Assembly: GCA_019745195.1 (NCBI GenBank)
Contig: JAIETL010000005.1
Coordinates: 62,001-126,000 of the forward strand
Origin: Beijerinckiaceae bacterium
GTDB taxonomy: Bacteria; Pseudomonadota; Alphaproteobacteria; Rhizobiales; Beijerinckiaceae
Reading direction: 5' to 3'
DNA length: 64,000 bases
Shown: positions 37,081 through 60,971 of the stretch, one piece after another
Layout of the letters: every line of letters begins with the position of its first letter
Position numbering within the stretch: the stretch's first letter is position 1
Notes under the pieces: generated by a model
What the model was told of the DNA's origin: nothing
Databases searched by the model: none
What the model saw: only the letters and a program-made list of their open reading frames with translations
Program-made: the position numbers and the translations under genes

Positions 37081-37612
37081 CAAGGCGCTGACTGCGAATG
37101 CCAGTTTGCCTTGTCCTGCTCATCTGCTCAATTCTGACGAGCATGCAATCTGGTGGGACCGCCCAAATCCAATCCGCTATGCTCGACGGCAGGCTGGGAT
37201 CGCCGTTTTTGTTGGCGCGTTTTTTATAGCCATGGCTTCTTTCGCAGTCCTCAAGGCAATCGACGACCAATACTACTTGATCGTCGTATTATGCATTGGC
37301 TCGGCCGGCGTAGGTTTATACGCCATGAGCCAGCCACTGCGCCGCTACATTCAGGCGCGTCATGTAGTTTATCTGTTGACCGACAAGCGCGCCATCGTCG
37401 CTGACAGTTGGGTGATCAAAATTATCCTGCTGCCTATGATCTCGTCGATTGAGGTCACACGAACCAACAGTTCTTTCGCAGACGTGCTCTTCTTCGATGT
37501 CGTGTTTGAGAATAGCGAAGGCGCCAATACCATTCGCGACGGCTTCATCGGCATCCTCCATGCAGACGCCGTCGCGCGCGAAATGCGCCGCCTTCAGGCC
37601 GCCGCCTCATGA
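37073..37612 (+). CDS. Membrane protein with PH-like domain, low GC
   Basis: A 179-residue protein. Two hydrophobic helices (about 44-65 and 69-85) are followed by a bacterial PH-like segment ([16 protein letters not shown], then a strand-rich region ending in a helix). It resembles YdbS-type membrane PH proteins, but I cannot name a family. It is embedded in the fdhD-mobA operon, overlapping fdhD by eight bases and mobA as ATGA. Its GC content is visibly lower (about half) and its codon use differs from the neighbours, which suggests acquisition with retained coupling. A role in formate dehydrogenase biogenesis is only a guess. Confidence 0.75.
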
Positions 37613-38250
37613 CGCCCCCCACCCTCGGCCTGCTCCTCGCCGGCGGTCTCGCCCGGCGCATGGGCGGCGGCGACAAACCGCTTCGGACGATCGCGGGCAA
37701 GACTATCCTCGCCCATGTGATCGAGCGGCTCGCCCCCCAATGCGACGGGCTGCTGATCAACGCCAATGGCGATCCGGCGCGCTTTTCCGATTATACCCTC
37801 CCGGTCGTCGCCGACAGCGTCCCCGATTTCGCCGGCCCGCTGGCCGGCATCCTGGCCGGGCTCGACTGGATGGCTGAGAACCGCCCGGAACTGGACTGGC
37901 TGGTCAGCGTCGCGACCGACACGCCCTTCATCCCGCGCGACCTCGTCGCCCGCCTGCACGAAGCGCGCGCGCAGGCAAACCTCCCGCTCGCCTGCGCGGC
38001 GTCGGGCGGCTGGACGCACCCCGTCATTGGGCTCTGGCCGGTTAGCCTCCGCGCCGAGCTGCGCCACGCGCTCACCGTCGAGGACGAGCGCAAGATCGAC
38101 CGCTGGACCGCCCGCCATGGCTGCGCCTGCGCGGAGTGGCCGGTCGATCCCGTCGATCCTTTCTTCAACGCCAACAGGCCCGAGGATATCGACGAGGCCG
38201 AGCGGCTTTTCGCCTCGCTAGATGATCGAGACCCACAGCCCTCATCCTGA
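37609..38250 (+). CDS. mobA: Molybdenum cofactor guanylyltransferase
   Basis: MobA transfers GMP from GTP to molybdopterin, giving the MGD form used by formate dehydrogenase. The 213-residue protein has the N-terminal nucleotidyltransferase motif [14 protein letters not shown] (9-22), the [10 protein letters not shown] block, the metal-binding TDTPF and the C-terminal NANRPEDI. The start overlaps the previous stop as ATGA. The last three residues and the stop codon (38248-38250) are supplied by a palindromic repeat. Confidence 0.95.
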
Positions 38251-38350: not shown

Positions 38351-38464
38351 GGGATACGCGGCAATTGATCCTGCTTCGTCGGAGCCGCTTGATCCGCAGG
38401 CCTCGCCTCGCTATCTCTCTTGCGAATAAGAAGAGCTTATCGGCACTGCCTTTGGGGGAAGACC

Positions 38465-38587
38465 ATGAAATCATTCGTTTTGGCCGTCGTGTTCGCCGTC
38501 GTTGCCGCTTTTGGCGCGAGCCTCGTGCTCGAAGGCTTCCAGCGCCCCGTCGACACCGCGTACTCGACCGGCGGCGTCAGGTTGTAG
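38465..38587 (+). CDS. 40-residue membrane or secreted miniprotein
   Basis: A short open frame of 40 residues: a basic start (MKSF), a hydrophobic stretch of about 18 residues, then a polar tail (FQRPVDTAYSTGGVRL). GGGGGAAG lies about five bases before the ATG, a strong ribosome-binding site. The tail ends five bases before the convergent mrp stop. The layout fits a single-pass inner-membrane protein or uncleaved signal. I recall similar short proteins in related alphaproteobacteria, but cannot verify this and no function is known to me. Confidence 0.7.
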   Translation: MKSFVLAVVFAVVAAFGASLVLEGFQRPVDTAYSTGGVRL

Positions 38588-38591
38588 AGCC

Positions 38592-39719
38592 CTACTCGAT
38601 CACGATCCGCGGCGCGGCCCTGACCGCGCCTCCAGCCAGCCCCGCCATCACCTTCCGCGCGATCGCTAGATAGGCCTTGGCGTGGCCTGAATCCGGATCG
38701 CTCGCGACGATCGGCCGGCCGCCATCCGAGGTCTCGCGGATCGGCATAGCAAGCGGAACCTCGCCGAGGAACGGCACGCCCTGCCGCTCCGCCTCGTGCC
38801 GCGCCCCGCCATGCGCAAAAATGTCCGAGCGCGTGCCGCATTCCGGGCAGATGAAATAGCTCATATTCTCCACGATGCCGAGGATCGGCACCTCGACCTT
38901 GCGGAACATCGCGACGCCGCGCCGCGCATCGAGCAGGGCCAGGTCCTGCGGCGTCGAGACGATCACGGCGCCGGCCAGCGGCGTCTGCTGCGCCATGGTG
39001 AGCTGCGCGTCGCCGGTGCCGGGCGGCATGTCGACGACCAGCACGTCGAGTTCGCCCCAGGCGACCTCGCGCAGCATCTGGGTGATGGCCGAGATCACCA
39101 TCGGCCCACGCCAGATCATCGGCGTCTCCTCGTCGATCAGGAAGCCGATCGACATGATCTTCAGCCCATAGGCCTCCATCGGCGCGAGCGTGCGGCCCTG
39201 GACCAGGCGCGGCTTGCCGGTGATCCCGAAGATTTTCGGCACTGAGGGGCCATAGATGTCGGCGTCGAGCACGCCGACGCGCAGGCCGAGCGTGGCGAGC
39301 GCGACGGCGAGATTGGCGGTGGTGGTCGATTTGCCGACGCCGCCCTTGCCGCTCGCGACCGCGATGATCTGCTTCACGCCGGGAATGCCGGCGGCCTTGG
39401 GCGTCGGGCCGCCGGGGCCGGGCGTCGGGCGCTGCGTCTGGGCCCGCGCCTGCGCGGCGGCTGATGTCGGGGCCTTGTCCGCAGTCAGCCCGACCAGAAC
39501 CTGCGTCACGCCGGGCAGGCCCGAAACCGCGCTCTCGGCCGCCTTGCGCACCGGCTCCATCGCGGCGGCCTCGGTGGCGTCGATGCCGATGGCGAAGATC
39601 ACCTTGCCGCCGTCGACAAGGATGTTGGCGACGCGGCCGGATGCGGCGAGCGACTGTCCGCTCGCCGGCAGTTTCACCAGTTCGAGCGCCCGCAGAATAT
39701 CGGCTTCGGTCAAGGCCAC
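38592..39719 (-). CDS. mrp: Mrp/NBP35-type Fe-S cluster carrier ATPase
   Basis: A 375-residue ApbC/Mrp-type P-loop ATPase that carries and delivers Fe-S clusters. It has an N-terminal MIP18-like domain (about 1-80), a Pro-rich linker, the deviant Walker A GKGGVGKSTTTANLA (from 124), LDADIYGPS, and the cluster-binding CPEC motif in YFICPECG. GTG 39719 is chosen; GGAG lies eight bases upstream. A tusA gene stands 25 bases upstream on the same strand, forming a sulfur/Fe-S pair. Formate dehydrogenase in this window is one possible client of the cell's Fe-S supply. Confidence 0.93.
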   Translation of the reverse strand: MALTEADILRALELVKLPASGQSLAASGRVANILVDGGKVIFAIGIDATEAAAMEPVRKAAESAVSGLPGVTQVLVGLTADKAPTSAAAQARAQTQRPTPGPGGPTPKAAGIPGVKQIIAVASGKGGVGKSTTTANLAVALATLGLRVGVLDADIYGPSVPKIFGITGKPRLVQGRTLAPMEAYGLKIMSIGFLIDEETPMIWRGPMVISAITQMLREVAWGELDVLVVDMPPGTGDAQLTMAQQTPLAGAVIVSTPQDLALLDARRGVAMFRKVEVPILGIVENMSYFICPECGTRSDIFAHGGARHEAERQGVPFLGEVPLAMPIRETSDGGRPIVASDPDSGHAKAYLAIARKVMAGLAGGAVRAAPRIVIE

Positions 39720-39744
39720 GCTGCCAGCTCCATCCGCCGCGCCG

Positions 39745-39975
39745 TCAGGCCGCGGCCTTGCGAATATGGAAGACGAGCAGCTCGCCATCGCTGTGGCTGT
39801 GCTCGATCAGATCGCCGGTTTCGCGCATCAGGTTGGGAATGTCGATAGCGGCCATCGCATCGGTGCATTCGACGACGAACAGGGCGCCGGGCGCTGCGCC
39901 CTTCAGCGCCTTGCGCACGCGCAAGGCGGGCAGGGGGCATTTCAGGCCGCGCAGATTAAGGGGGGTGGGGGACAT
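39745..39975 (-). CDS. TusA-family sulfur carrier protein
   Basis: A 76-residue TusA/SirA-fold protein. The persulfide-bearing Cys13 is in GLKCPLPALRVRKAL, the family motif. The rest follows the family (VECTDAMAAIDIPNLM). TusA proteins accept sulfur from cysteine desulfurases and relay it to tRNA thiolation, molybdenum cofactor or other targets. It precedes mrp on the same strand. Its position beside Fe-S and near molybdenum genes fits a general sulfur relay, but the target is not shown by sequence. Confidence 0.9.
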   Translation of the reverse strand: MSPTPLNLRGLKCPLPALRVRKALKGAAPGALFVVECTDAMAAIDIPNLMRETGDLIEHSHSDGELLVFHIRKAAA

Positions 39976-56216: not shown

Positions 56217-56813
56217 TCAGATCGCGATCGTTTCCTTGTAGGCGGTCTGCCAACCCCAGGCGCCGGAGCCGTAGCCGCGCTTGACCACACGCTCCTTGTA
56301 GATCTGGGCGATGATCTCGCCGTCGCCAGCCAGCAGCGACTTGGTCGAGCACATCTCGGCGCAGAGCGGCAGCTTGCCCTCGGCCAGACGGTTCGAGCCG
56401 TATTTCTGGAACTCGGCCGGCGAGAGATCGGCCTCGGGGCCGCCCGAGCAATAGGTGCACTTGTCCATCTTGCCGCGCGAACCGAAGTTGCCGACCTTGG
56501 GATATTGCGGCGCGCCGAATGGGCAGGCGTAGAAGCAATAGCCGCAGCCGATGCAGAGGTCCTTGGAGTGCAGCACCACGGCGTCGGCCGTGGTGTAGAA
56601 GCAGTCGACCGGGCAGACGGCCGCGCAGGGCGCATCCGTGCAGTGCATGCAGGCCATCGAGACCGAACGCTCGCCGGGCTTGCCGTCATTGATCGTGACG
56701 ACGCGGCGGCGGTTGATGCCCCAGGGCACCTCGTTCTCGTTCTTGCAGGCGGTGACGCAGGCGTTGCACTCGATGCAGCGGTCAGCGTCGCAGAGGAATT
56801 TCATACGGGCCAT
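56217..56813 (-). CDS. Formate dehydrogenase iron-sulfur subunit (beta)
   Basis: A 198-residue four-cluster ferredoxin-like subunit. Cysteine groups are visible in CDADRCIECNACVTACK, CMHCTDAPCAAVCPVDC, CIGCGYCFYACPFG and KCTYC. It carries electrons from the catalytic to the cytochrome subunit. Unlike E. coli FdnH it lacks the C-terminal membrane helix, so it is presumably held by its partners. It lies 14 bases after the catalytic subunit's stop. Confidence 0.95.
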   Translation of the reverse strand: MARMKFLCDADRCIECNACVTACKNENEVPWGINRRRVVTINDGKPGERSVSMACMHCTDAPCAAVCPVDCFYTTADAVVLHSKDLCIGCGYCFYACPFGAPQYPKVGNFGSRGKMDKCTYCSGGPEADLSPAEFQKYGSNRLAEGKLPLCAEMCSTKSLLAGDGEIIAQIYKERVVKRGYGSGAWGWQTAYKETIAI

Positions 56814-56827
56814 GGTTCAGTTCCTCT

Positions 56828-59806
56828 TCACGCCGCAGCGATCTGGCAAAGCGTGACCTTGCCTTCGTGCATCGCAGTCACGGGGTCGTAGCCATAGGTG
56901 GTGACGGTGTTGACCGACTCGCCGAGCACGATCGGGTCGGTGCCCTTCGGGTAGTTCCCGCGCTGGTCCTGGCCCTGGTAGAAGCCGCCGAAGTGGAACG
57001 GCATGAAGGCCACGCCCTTGCCGACACGCTCAGTCACCAGCGCCTTGACGCGGGCTTTCGAGCCGTTCTCGGGGCCCGACACCCAGACGAACGCGCCGTC
57101 CCGGATGCCGCGCTCGCTTGCGTCCGCCGGGTTGATCTCGACGAACATGTCCTGCTGCAGCTCGGCCAGCCACTTGTTCGAGCGGGTCTCTTCGCCGCCA
57201 CCCTCGTATTCGACGAGGCGGCCCGAGGTCAGCACGATCGGGAACGACTTGGCGACGCCCTTCTCCACTGCGGCCTTCTGCACCGAGGTGTGCAGGTTGG
57301 GGATGCGCAGCGTGCGCTCGTCGGGACGGGCCGGCCATTTGGCGACGAGATCGACGCGCGGCGAGTAGATCGGCTCGCGATGGACCGGCACGGGGTCGGG
57401 CAGGTTCCAGGCGTTGGCGCGGGCCTTGCCGTTGCCATAGGGCACGCAGCCATGCTCCAGCGCAACGCGCTGGATGCCGCCCGAGAGGTCGTTCGCCCAG
57501 TTCACGGCGTCGATGTTGTTGCCGCCGATCCAGGAAATGGTCGCGATCTCGGCCGGCGTCAGGTCCTTGTCCCAGCCGAGCTTCTTCAGCGAGCCCATGG
57601 TGAACTCGGGGTATCCGTCCTTGATCTCCGAGTTCAGCGAGTAGGAGCCGTTCTCCGCCAGCATCGTGTCGTTGACCTTGCTGCCATCGGCGAGCGTGCG
57701 CTCGCGGGTCAGGCCGAAGCGCGGACGGAAGGTGCCGCCGCCATTCTTCGCCTCCAGCGAGGTGTTGTAGAGGATGTGCGTGCCGGGATGCTTGAACTCC
57801 GGCGTGCCCCAGCACGGCCAGGGCAGGCCGTAATAGTCGTTGGCGACGGGCGAGCCGGCCGCGCCGCGCAGTGAGACCAGGTCGAACTTGTCCTGGTTCG
57901 CCATGTGGAGCTTCAGGCGCTCCGGCGACTGGCCGGTATAACCGGTCGACCAGCCGCCCCTGTTGATCTCGCGCAGGATCGATTCAGGGCTCGGCTCGGC
58001 GCCGAACTTGCCCTGCACCATCTCGTAAGGCTTGAACATCGGCTCGGCGAAGCCGAGCTTCTGCGCCAGCCGGTAGATGATCCAGTAATCGTTGGCGGAC
58101 TCGAAGATCGGATCGACGACCTTCTCGCCCCACTGCACCGAGCGGTTGGAGCAGGTGCGCGAGCCCGAGCACTCGAACTGCGTCGCGGCCGGCAGGAGAT
58201 AGGTGCCGTTCTTGCGCTGGCCCAGCGAGACGAAATTGGTCGGATGCGGATCGGCGACGACCAGCAGTTCCAGCTTCTCCAGCCCCTTCACGGCGTCGGG
58301 CATGCGCGGGATGGTGTTGCCGCCATGGCCCATGACGATCATGGCCTTGAGGTTGTCCTTCTGGTCGACCTGCTCGGCCGGCAGATTGGCCGCGTCGAAC
58401 CAGCGGGTCGAGGTGTGGCCCGAGGTCTCCATATTGGCCTTGCGCGTGCGCGCCGGGCGGCCGCCCTTGGCGGGAACCTCGTCGAAGCGGGTGACGAAAT
58501 AGTCGTAATCGACGTTCCAGACGCGCGCCCAATGCCGCCAGGCGCCCTCGACCAGCCCGTAATAGCAAGGCAGATTCGAGATATCGAGGCCGAAATCGGT
58601 CGCGCCCTGCACGTTGCAGTGGCCGCGGAAGATGTTGGCGCCGTTGCCCATGCCGCCGACATTGCCGGTGGCCAGCAGCAGGTTGCAGATGGCGCGCACA
58701 TTGGCCGTGCCGACCGAGTGCTGGGTCACGCCCATGCACCAGATGAAGGTGGCGGGCTTGACCTTGGCGAAGGTCTCCGCGGCGCGCTTCATCTGCGCCT
58801 CGGGCACGCCGGTGATGTCCTCGACCGTCTTGGGATCGTATTTCTCGACCTCCTTGCGGACATCGTCCATGCCGTGGACGCGCGCGGCCAGGAACGCCTT
58901 GTCCTCCCAGCCATTCTTGAAGATGTGCCACATCATGCCCCAGATCACCGCGATGTCGGTGCCCGAGCGGATGCGGATATAATCGGTGGCGTGTGCGGCG
59001 GTGCGGGTCAGGCGCGGGTCGAAGACGATGACGTTGGCGCGCTGGACCTCCTTGCCCTCGAGGATGTGCTGCATCGAGACGGGATGCGCCTCGGCGGCGT
59101 TGGACCCCATGAAGATGACGGTCTTCGAATTCCGGATGTCGTTGTAGGAATTCGTCATGGCGCCGTAGCCCCATGTGTTCGCGACGCCGGCGACCGTGGT
59201 CGAGTGGCAGATGCGTGCCTGATGGTCGACGTTGTTGGTGCCCCAGAAGGCCGCGAACTTGCGGAAGAGATACGCGCCCTCGTTGGAGAACTTGGCCGAG
59301 CCGAGCAGATAGACGGAATCCGCGCCGGACTTGGCCCGGATCTCCATCATCTTGTCGCCAATCTCGTTGATCGCGACATCCCAGGAGATGCGCTGCCACT
59401 GCCCGTCGACCAGCTTCATCGGGTACTTGATGCGGCGGTCGCCATGGGTGAGTTCGCGCACCGACGCGCCCTTGGCGCAGTGCGAACCCCGGTTGATCGG
59501 GCTTTCCCAGGCCGGCTCCTGGCCGACCCAGACGCCGTTGGCGACCTCGGCCTTGACCGTGCAGCCGACCGAGCAATGGGTGCAGATGTTCTTGACGACC
59601 TTGGTTCCGGTCGCGGGGCCGAAGGTCGCGGCTTCCGCCTTGCGGACCGAGCCGATGGTCAGCGAGCCGGCGACGGCTGCGCCGCCGGCGACGAGCCCCG
59701 AGCGCCGCAGGAAGGTGCGGCGGTCCATGACGCCCGATGACAGGCCGGCCATCGCCGCCTGGAGCTTGCCGCGCTGGATGTCGGCCGATTTGCGCTTGAT
59801 GAGCAT
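56828..59806 (-). CDS. Formate dehydrogenase catalytic subunit (alpha), Cys-type, Tat-exported
   Basis: A 992-residue molybdenum (or tungsten) bis-MGD oxidoreductase that oxidises formate to carbon dioxide. The Tat motif is RRTFLRR (29-35). A [4Fe-4S] site uses Cys75, Cys78, Cys82 and Cys110 (CTHCSVGC). The active-site residue is Cys200 with His201 in RICHSTTVAG, encoded by TGC, so it is not selenocysteine. The cofactor-binding landmark AMTNSYNDIRNSKTVIFMGS follows. The enzyme is exported folded by Tat to the periplasm, consistent with the Tat-leader partner and TorD-type chaperone just upstream. ATG 59806 gives 28 residues before the twin arginines. Confidence 0.96.
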   Translation of the reverse strand: MLIKRKSADIQRGKLQAAMAGLSSGVMDRRTFLRRSGLVAGGAAVAGSLTIGSVRKAEAATFGPATGTKVVKNICTHCSVGCTVKAEVANGVWVGQEPAWESPINRGSHCAKGASVRELTHGDRRIKYPMKLVDGQWQRISWDVAINEIGDKMMEIRAKSGADSVYLLGSAKFSNEGAYLFRKFAAFWGTNNVDHQARICHSTTVAGVANTWGYGAMTNSYNDIRNSKTVIFMGSNAAEAHPVSMQHILEGKEVQRANVIVFDPRLTRTAAHATDYIRIRSGTDIAVIWGMMWHIFKNGWEDKAFLAARVHGMDDVRKEVEKYDPKTVEDITGVPEAQMKRAAETFAKVKPATFIWCMGVTQHSVGTANVRAICNLLLATGNVGGMGNGANIFRGHCNVQGATDFGLDISNLPCYYGLVEGAWRHWARVWNVDYDYFVTRFDEVPAKGGRPARTRKANMETSGHTSTRWFDAANLPAEQVDQKDNLKAMIVMGHGGNTIPRMPDAVKGLEKLELLVVADPHPTNFVSLGQRKNGTYLLPAATQFECSGSRTCSNRSVQWGEKVVDPIFESANDYWIIYRLAQKLGFAEPMFKPYEMVQGKFGAEPSPESILREINRGGWSTGYTGQSPERLKLHMANQDKFDLVSLRGAAGSPVANDYYGLPWPCWGTPEFKHPGTHILYNTSLEAKNGGGTFRPRFGLTRERTLADGSKVNDTMLAENGSYSLNSEIKDGYPEFTMGSLKKLGWDKDLTPAEIATISWIGGNNIDAVNWANDLSGGIQRVALEHGCVPYGNGKARANAWNLPDPVPVHREPIYSPRVDLVAKWPARPDERTLRIPNLHTSVQKAAVEKGVAKSFPIVLTSGRLVEYEGGGEETRSNKWLAELQQDMFVEINPADASERGIRDGAFVWVSGPENGSKARVKALVTERVGKGVAFMPFHFGGFYQGQDQRGNYPKGTDPIVLGESVNTVTTYGYDPVTAMHEGKVTLCQIAAA

Positions 59807-59819
59807 GGGATCGCGCCTC

Positions 59820-60023
59820 TCAGTAACGGTTCGAGCGGTAGAAGGCCTTGACGTGGTCGCTTTCCTTGTAGCGCGCCCTCGTCTCGTCCTTGCCGGGGTC
59901 GACGGCCTGCGCCGGCGTCACCATGGCCGGCGCGACCGCGACGGTCGCGCCGGCGCCGAGCGCCTTGAAGAAGCTGCGGCGGTCGAAGGCCGATTTTTCG
60001 GTCTCTTTTGCCTTTTGCGACAT
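59820..60023 (-). CDS. Small Tat-leader protein of formate dehydrogenase region (TIGR02811-like)
   Basis: A 67-residue protein that is mostly a Tat signal: DRRSFFKALGAGATVAVAPA then a short polar tail. Such small proteins often precede formate dehydrogenase genes and are annotated as formate dehydrogenase region Tat target. ATG 60023 is chosen; GGAGAAA is upstream. The mature part is only about 25 residues, so it may act in assembly or as a short lipid-side peptide. Its job is unknown. Confidence 0.85.
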   Translation of the reverse strand: MSQKAKETEKSAFDRRSFFKALGAGATVAVAPAMVTPAQAVDPGKDETRARYKESDHVKAFYRSNRY

Positions 60024-60049: not shown

Positions 60050-60859
60050 TCACGACGGCAGCCTCGCGGCTTCCGTCTCGATGGCGATGAACAGGCTGCC
60101 GATGCGGCCCACGGTCCGATAGAAATTGGAGGCCCTGGCGACTTCGAGATCGGCGAAGAAGCGCTCGGCCCAGGGCGCGAGATGGCGGGCGAAGAACCCG
60201 TCGGCGTCGACGTCCTCGGCCACGAAGACGCCGCGCAGCAGATGCGCGGTGATGTCCATCAGGATGGCGATGTGGTCTTCCGGCTCGCCGGCGCGCTCGG
60301 CCCGCGCGATGCCGAGCTTGCCCATGTCCTCGCGAACCAGCGCCAGAGGCTTCTCGTGCAGAAAGCCGGTCAGGTAATAGGAGGCGTAGGGCAGAAGCTC
60401 GCCACGCCCGACGCCGACGAAGAGCTCGAAGAACTCGTCGCGGACCGCCTCGGGCGTGGTCTGGGCCGCGGCCTCGGCCAGCGCGATATGGGCCAGCCCG
60501 AGCGGCGTGCCGTCGCCCTGCAGCCCCTGCAGCGCCGCCAGCGTCTCGGCCGTCGGCGAACGCCAGAGCAGCGCGCCGATCAGTTCGAACTCGCTGGCGC
60601 GGGCTTCGTCGATCGGGTCGATGTCGGGGGCGGCCTCGGTATTCAACAGGATGGGCTCATGGGTTGGAGAGGCGAGGGGATAGAGGTCCGGCCGCAATTC
60701 GCTGCGCGAGACGCCCGTCAGCGCCTCCACCGAGAGCACGCGATCGGCAGGCACCCGCTTCCAGCTTGAAATGGCCGGCTGCGACACGCCGACACTGCGG
60801 GCGAGCGCTCTCACGCCGCCGGCCGCGCCGATTGCCCTGTCGAGTGCCGGATCCCGCAT
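60050..60859 (-). CDS. HTH-TorD fusion: Tat/molybdoenzyme chaperone with N-terminal DNA-binding domain
   Basis: A 269-residue protein with two parts. Residues 1-60 form a YdaS/Cro-type helix-turn-helix (AIGAAGGVRALARSVGVSQP, then WKRVPADRVLSVEALTGVS). Residues about 80-250 match TorD/DmsD-type chaperones that bind Tat signals and molybdenum apoenzymes, seen in YASYYLTGFLHEKPLALVRE and EPEDHIAILMDITAHLL. It likely proofreads the catalytic subunit before export. The HTH portion may bind DNA, perhaps the palindrome upstream. ATG 60859 is chosen; the longer frame upstream lies in the promoter region. Confidence 0.88.
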   Translation of the reverse strand: MRDPALDRAIGAAGGVRALARSVGVSQPAISSWKRVPADRVLSVEALTGVSRSELRPDLYPLASPTHEPILLNTEAAPDIDPIDEARASEFELIGALLWRSPTAETLAALQGLQGDGTPLGLAHIALAEAAAQTTPEAVRDEFFELFVGVGRGELLPYASYYLTGFLHEKPLALVREDMGKLGIARAERAGEPEDHIAILMDITAHLLRGVFVAEDVDADGFFARHLAPWAERFFADLEVARASNFYRTVGRIGSLFIAIETEAARLPS

Positions 60860-60924
60860 GGTCCGCGTCGTTCCCCTGAGCCAACTCGCGGCGTTCGATC
60901 GCCGCTGCCGTTTTTTAGAGCAGT

Positions 60925-60941
60925 GATAATGAGCGCTTATC
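60925..60941. promoter_or_regulatory. Palindrome in AT-rich patch upstream of HTH-torD
   Basis: GATAATGAGCGCTTATC is a 17-base site with five-base perfect arms, in a conspicuously AT-rich spacer (about 60915-60975) between DUF3306 and the HTH-TorD gene. A promoter for the formate dehydrogenase genes probably lies here. The HTH-TorD protein is one candidate binder. I cannot set exact -35/-10 boxes. Confidence 0.4.
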
Positions 60942-60971
60942 GCTTGAAAATACAACTATTCCAAACTGAAT

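Follow-up and report, generated by a model that had tools for sequence, protein, structure and literature searches.

The fdh operon described here is headed by a gene that joins a Cro/YdaS-type helix-turn-helix (HTH) domain and a TorD/DmsD-type chaperone domain in one chain (HTH-TorD). We propose that this protein represents a class of one-component regulator in which a Tat-leader-binding chaperone would serve as the sensor of unmatured or unexported formate dehydrogenase and would set transcription of the fdh genes and, in Bosea, of a membrane miniprotein gene. We give this reading as a whole a probability of about 0.42, and we found no such regulator class in the literature searched. One part of it, that HTH-TorD is a DNA-binding autorepressor of its own fdh operon, appears probable: as a 17-base palindrome accompanies the HTH in many relatives, the protein is very likely to regulate the operon that encodes it, and DNA-binding autoregulation is strongly supported by comparison between genomes. 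The other part, that holding a Tat leader alters how the protein binds DNA, which would make fdh transcription depend on the pool of free chaperone, is a conjecture that we consider close to an even bet, on the low side. Features of the window, by which we mean the whole 64,000-nucleotide stretch of DNA that was analyzed, are collected in Table 1.

Table 1. Features of the HTH-TorD system in the window (positions count from the first nucleotide of the window; residue ranges refer to the fusion protein).
Feature	Position	Strand	Details and basis
HTH-TorD fusion gene	60050..60859	(-)	269 aa; Pfam, translation, alignment, model, fold search
Domains of HTH-TorD protein			YdaS/Cro-type HTH, aa 4-60; variable linker, about aa 61-80; TorD/DmsD-type domain, aa 81-265
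Putative 17-bp operator	60925..60941	(-)	GATAATGAGCGCTTATC; in gene direction GATAAGCGCTCATTATC; conservation, top matrix site of window
Possible core promoter	60936..60964	(-)	-35 TTGGAA at 60959-60964, 17 bp, -10 GATAAG at 60936-60941 inside putative operator; by eye
Small protein with Tat-type leader (DRRSFFK), possible client	59817..60023	(-)	Translation
fdhA, formate dehydrogenase catalytic subunit with Tat-type leader (DRRTFLRR), likely client	56828..59806	(-)	Pfam, NCBIfam
fdhB, formate dehydrogenase beta subunit	56217..56813	(-)	NCBIfam FDH3_beta, above cut-off
Second putative operator	38425..38441	(+)	AATAAGAAGAGCTTATC; 40 bp before miniprotein ATG; 19.4 bits
40-aa hydrophobic membrane miniprotein, predicted second target	38465..38587	(+)	Co-occurrence in Bosea

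The open frame runs from 60050 to 60955 on the minus strand, and translation together with alignment to relatives places the conserved start at the ATG at 60859. A preliminary description of this DNA had given the span as 60050-60941; the gene does lie inside it, but its end at 60941 takes in the palindrome upstream of the conserved start. The fusion itself, which that description had proposed, was borne out by profile searches: YdaS_toxin (PF15943; aa 6-60, E 5.6e-15, 55.4 bits against a cut-off of 30) and P22_Cro (E 8.8e-8, 32.3 bits, cut-off 30.2) matched the HTH, and Nitrate_red_del (PF02613; aa 119-236, E 8.8e-26, 91 bits, cut-off 22.2) matched the chaperone half of the same protein, all above the Pfam cut-offs. 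Since HTH-TorD is a single open frame whose full length is kept in relatives, it is no frameshift artefact. Scores against the NCBIfam equivalogs for TorD (48.9 bits, cut-off 132) and DmsD (42.5 bits, cut-off 162) fell under their cut-offs, which makes the protein a member of the superfamily and neither TorD nor DmsD proper. The E-P-x-D-H motif is a hallmark of the TorD/DmsD/NarJ (REMP) family; it is present in the window protein, in 108 of 115 fused proteins and in 43 of 64 unfused ones. The gene also adjoins that of a molybdoenzyme with a Tat-type leader, in keeping with REMP membership.

A structure model built on 48 sequences (the window protein and 47 of the 80 named loci, which are the 80 most similar to the fused query among 426 relatives) had a mean pLDDT of 88.3, with short helices at residues 4-55, a low-confidence stretch at 64-77 and then an all-helical domain. 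When the model was used for fold searches, the HTH proved to have the fold of Xfaso 1 Cro, from a Xylella prophage (3bd1; 50% identity, rmsd 1.3 over 60 residues, Z 9.7), and the chaperone domain matched YcdY (Z 19.1), E. coli DmsD (Z 18.2) and NarJ (Z 14.0 and 13.8, the latter signal-peptide-bound), in agreement with the TorD/DmsD type first assigned to it. Loss of DNA contact residues, which the preliminary description had named as grounds for discarding a regulatory role, was not seen: Q27, P28, S31, W33 and R40 are invariant in the 48 aligned sequences. The linker has a mean pairwise identity of 0.18, compared to 0.68 for the HTH and 0.62 for the chaperone domain; being so poorly conserved, it gives no sign of tight domain coupling and no hint of mechanism.

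As originally described, the fusion gene heads the fdh genes, all on one strand: the Tat-target open frame starts at 60023, fdhA at 59806 and fdhB at 56813. The small Tat-leader protein is present in 66 of 72 named fused loci, and fdhA lies downstream on the same strand in all 72 named fused loci where more than 1.5 kb of downstream sequence is available. Upstream of HTH-TorD in the window are DUF3306, DUF3305, DUF6352 and DUF6505 genes, and DUF3306 precedes the fusion gene in 79 of 79 named fused loci. DUF3305 and DUF3306 also adjoin the dmsD-fdh operons of a published survey (PMC4464133), whose main text does not contain the words "helix-turn-helix" and "fusion".

We found no report of an HTH-TorD fusion in the literature searched. 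A full fusion was present in 26 of the 297 genomes of our order survey, in which 81 rows were TorD-only, and occurred in Bosea, Chelatococcus, Salinarimonas, Bradyrhizobium, Afipia, records labelled Pseudolabrys and Methylocystis, and others. Beyond the order, the class survey added fusions in 6 of 289 genomes, of which two have a different type of HTH; among 398 genomes of the phylum, no full-length match came from outside the class at E values up to 1e-30. One genome (G207, contig C97) carries fused and unfused TorD genes about 287 kb apart.

The palindrome reported in the gene's own promoter region is indeed there: GATAA-N7-TTATC, 17 bp at 60925-60941, with 65 bp between it and the ATG. With at most one mismatch, this pattern occurs twice in the window (the mean over 100 shuffles was 0.17), and the second occurrence is a related putative operator before the miniprotein gene. 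The site at the fusion gene has the best matrix score of the window (26.2 bits). Every one of 115 distinct fused genes has a strict site, nATA(A/G)-N7-(C/T)TATn, upstream, compared to 2 of 64 unfused TorD genes from the same order, so that the suggested pairing of palindrome and HTH holds well beyond the window; the strict pattern was derived from these same data, and as the fused genes form nearly one clade, the 115 are not independent. A looser pattern, nATA-N9-TATn, was found within about 250 bp upstream of the HTH in 129 of 129 fused loci and in 9 of 64 TorD-only loci. The unfused controls were 64 of the 81 TorD-only rows (E up to 1.3e-35; the other 17 were left out), and a partial gene at a contig end (L029) was also set aside. 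Because the strict pattern forces ATA and TAT, those columns carry no weight; at position 5, where the pattern does not impose pairing, the two arms are complementary in 98% of sites across the 115 genes, while the flanks are little conserved. A leave-one-out matrix, trained on sites found with the strict pattern and with close relatives kept in the training set, gave the site the top rank in every one of the 77 loci tested, each about 3-15 kb long; these are the 80 named loci less L051, L053 and L086, which fit neither training set. Away from this position, the strict core was seen 11 times in 1.06 Mb of the 80 named loci, and a single Bosea site that recurs accounts for 7 of those occurrences. 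All four loci with the same HTH type that were read later (L136, L223, L224 and L240) also have the site.

Operon context is alike in fused and unfused loci, since fdhA lies on the same strand in 19 of the 20 unfused loci checked. Five of six unfused genes that are nested among fused ones on the tree are without the site. The two unfused genes with a strict site are L139 and L207. The first is an unfused TorD gene nested among fused ones, with GATAGCCAGTCCTTATC 74 bp before the match, which may be a leftover or chance; L268, of the same genus, is without it. No separate HTH gene was found beside unfused torD when the fused-HTH profile was run against six-frame translations of 68 loci, mostly covering 1-1.5 kb upstream, at E of 10 or less.

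Perfect GATAA-N7-TTATC sites occur at five places in the window's own genome. The other four we judged by eye to be unrelated, one lying in long open frames, one in a 123-aa frame and two (position 1501 of L214 and of L215) upstream of non-fdh genes that look alike by eye. A further recurring element, GATAAT-N5-CTTATA, lies between divergent open frames in seven Bosea loci, heading genes upstream of HTH-TorD (at -3805 from the HTH in L037, -3903 in L038, -3773 in L040, -3735 in L041, -3734 in L042, -3796 in L043 and -4004 in L047). We set it aside: it could be an operator or a pair of back-to-back divergent -10 boxes, and none was present in the 5 kb searched in the window's genome (L269).

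Operator type varies with the recognition helix. Where the residue after QP is serine (79 unique genes), no gene has A5 on both arms, while 33 of 36 unique genes with alanine or threonine there do; the half-sites change together on both arms. This covariation is suggestive and not significant: it comes down to two residue changes on a quick tree with weak deep nodes, and a sign test on independent pairs had no power. Exceptions are L240 (T29 with CATAG) and L051, L053 and L086, in which residue 29 is A or T but A5 is not on both arms. In two Bosea genomes (G005 and G036), the protein is 50-54% identical to that of the window and goes with the operator type of its neighbor on the tree, the f20 family. 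K34 was also considered as a determinant of operator position 1 and dropped, as L061, L098, L134 and L136 have K or R34 without G1. Two further loci (L225 and L226) have TorD fused to a different YdaS-like HTH, whose helix carries VWHW, without the usual site, possibly a separate fusion; L225 has a perfect 17-bp palindrome of another sequence about 330 bp upstream.

Apart from the site at the fusion gene, the window has one strong site (the next-best scores 6.1 bits), and it precedes the miniprotein gene, which lies between a mobA-like gene (37609-38250) and an mrp/apbC-like gene (38592-39788). Searches with the miniprotein gave nothing in Pfam at E up to 5 and nothing above a cut-off in NCBIfam. 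Relatives of it are present in 21 of 41 genomes of the genus, and among 37 Bosea genomes searched for both, the set of 20 that have the miniprotein coincides with the set that have an HTH-TorD with at least 71% identity. A miniprotein profile matched G005 (2.3e-5), gave weak matches in G030 and G033 (0.08 and 0.04) and none in G036. Among the Bosea miniprotein genes, 15 of 21 have the site at -40 to -57 and 3 more a near match; the remaining loci have a degenerate site (L287 and L288) or none (L281). In Bradyrhizobium loci, the gene lies about 5.7 kb downstream of the fusion on the same strand, past fdhA and fdhB, and is part of the fdh operon, whereas in most Bosea it is separate with its own putative operator. 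Outside Bosea, 3 of 30 miniprotein loci have a site within 200 bp (G106, G142 and G367) and 27 do not, some of them inside the fdh operon. Comparison thus supports the pairing of HTH and operator, the dyad symmetry of the latter and, in Bosea, a second predicted target.

A possible core promoter at the fusion gene was placed by eye (Table 1), as was an alternative register, TTGTAT with CATTAT; a consensus promoter scan there returned no sigma-70-type match. With promoters again placed by eye, the putative operator in Bosea overlies a plausible -10 in front of the fusion gene; before the miniprotein it overlies the stretch just past the -10, and in other clades it apparently lies in the spacer or on the -35. 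As the site is on or next to the likely core promoter at a place that varies by clade, blocking fits better than activation from a fixed distance. A terminator-like hairpin followed by T residues lies antisense in the fusion-gene leader (60888-60905, plus strand).

These observations suggest a model in which the Cro/YdaS-type HTH, as a dimer, would bind the 17-bp palindrome on the promoter of torD, the Tat-target gene and the fdh genes and repress it, and in Bosea would also repress the miniprotein gene. We infer repression from the promoter overlap and from the precedent of YdaS. In the available part of the report on prophage CP-933P (PMC8630535), YdaS is argued to be a Cro analogue despite its Pfam name; it binds the two divergent promoters, needing a higher concentration at its own, and acts as a repressor of promoters that include its own. 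The TorD domain, in turn, would help mature the formate dehydrogenase encoded by the genes that HTH-TorD would control, holding the enzyme ahead of export. Because fdhA belongs to that operon and the FdhA leader is what a TorD domain naturally binds, a coupling of the two activities is an attractive idea. Repression by the client-free form would mean that expression rises with the amount of unexported enzyme, repression by the client-bound form that it falls. The homeostatic sensing loop put forward in the preliminary description is a hypothesis in either form.

The same operator evidence applies equally to plain negative autoregulation without sensing, in which the HTH would cap the level of chaperone and operon and the two domains would share a chain and pass no signal. 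A long, disordered and poorly conserved linker suits this explanation, and we regard it as a serious contender that falls somewhat short of an even bet. Against it, both domains stay conserved, and the fusion of the HTH to the client's own chaperone has been kept across many genera, which suggests a useful link between them.

Two other explanations concern the site itself. HTH-TorD may activate, or both activate and repress, from its palindrome, as Cro-type proteins can be dual in effect, and the promoter positions that speak for blocking were assigned by eye where the scan found none; the site's position on or next to the likely core promoter, at relative places that differ between clades, makes this unlikely. 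Alternatively, another regulator might bind the palindrome and the HTH be a passenger. The five perfect genomic copies, two of them near genes of another family, and the similar site in 2 of 64 unfused operons would agree with this, but 62 of the 64 unfused operons of the same order have no such site, the recognition-helix residues are invariant and the type of site follows the type of protein, and we consider a passenger HTH highly improbable.

To our knowledge, how synthesis of a cofactor-loaded, Tat-exported enzyme is matched to the capacity for its maturation is little understood in bacteria. A chaperone with its own repressor domain would make the link between synthesis and maturation a single, directly testable protein. 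Fused and unfused operons within one order provide a ready natural comparison, and binding tests can be designed around the operator types. The HTH-operator pairing also offers a regulatory handle on this formate dehydrogenase system, along with a predicted second target.

In the DnaK/sigma 32 and GroE/HrcA systems, the free chaperone pool controls transcription. If the proposed sensing is true, HTH-TorD would resemble these systems in linking chaperone occupancy to transcription; DnaK and GroE act on a separate regulator, whereas here chaperone and regulator would be one chain. In its fold and in its place beside fdh, DUF3305 and DUF3306 genes, HTH-TorD is like the TorD/DmsD/NarJ chaperones and the TorD-fdh and DmsD-fdh operons, but it differs from those operons, as they are described in the available part of PMC4464133, by an N-terminal DNA-binding domain with a putative operator. 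With lambdoid Cro/YdaS proteins (Xfaso 1 Cro and, in the accessible portion of PMC8630535, CP-933P YdaS), it shares the HTH fold and sequence and a palindrome by its own promoter. Unlike those small, separate prophage proteins, the HTH is here fused to a chaperone in an fdh operon, and the letters of the operator differ. Because it is fused to TorD and lies in an fdh operon and not in a prophage immunity region, we regard the HTH of this protein as a Cro/YdaS relative and not as a phage Cro.
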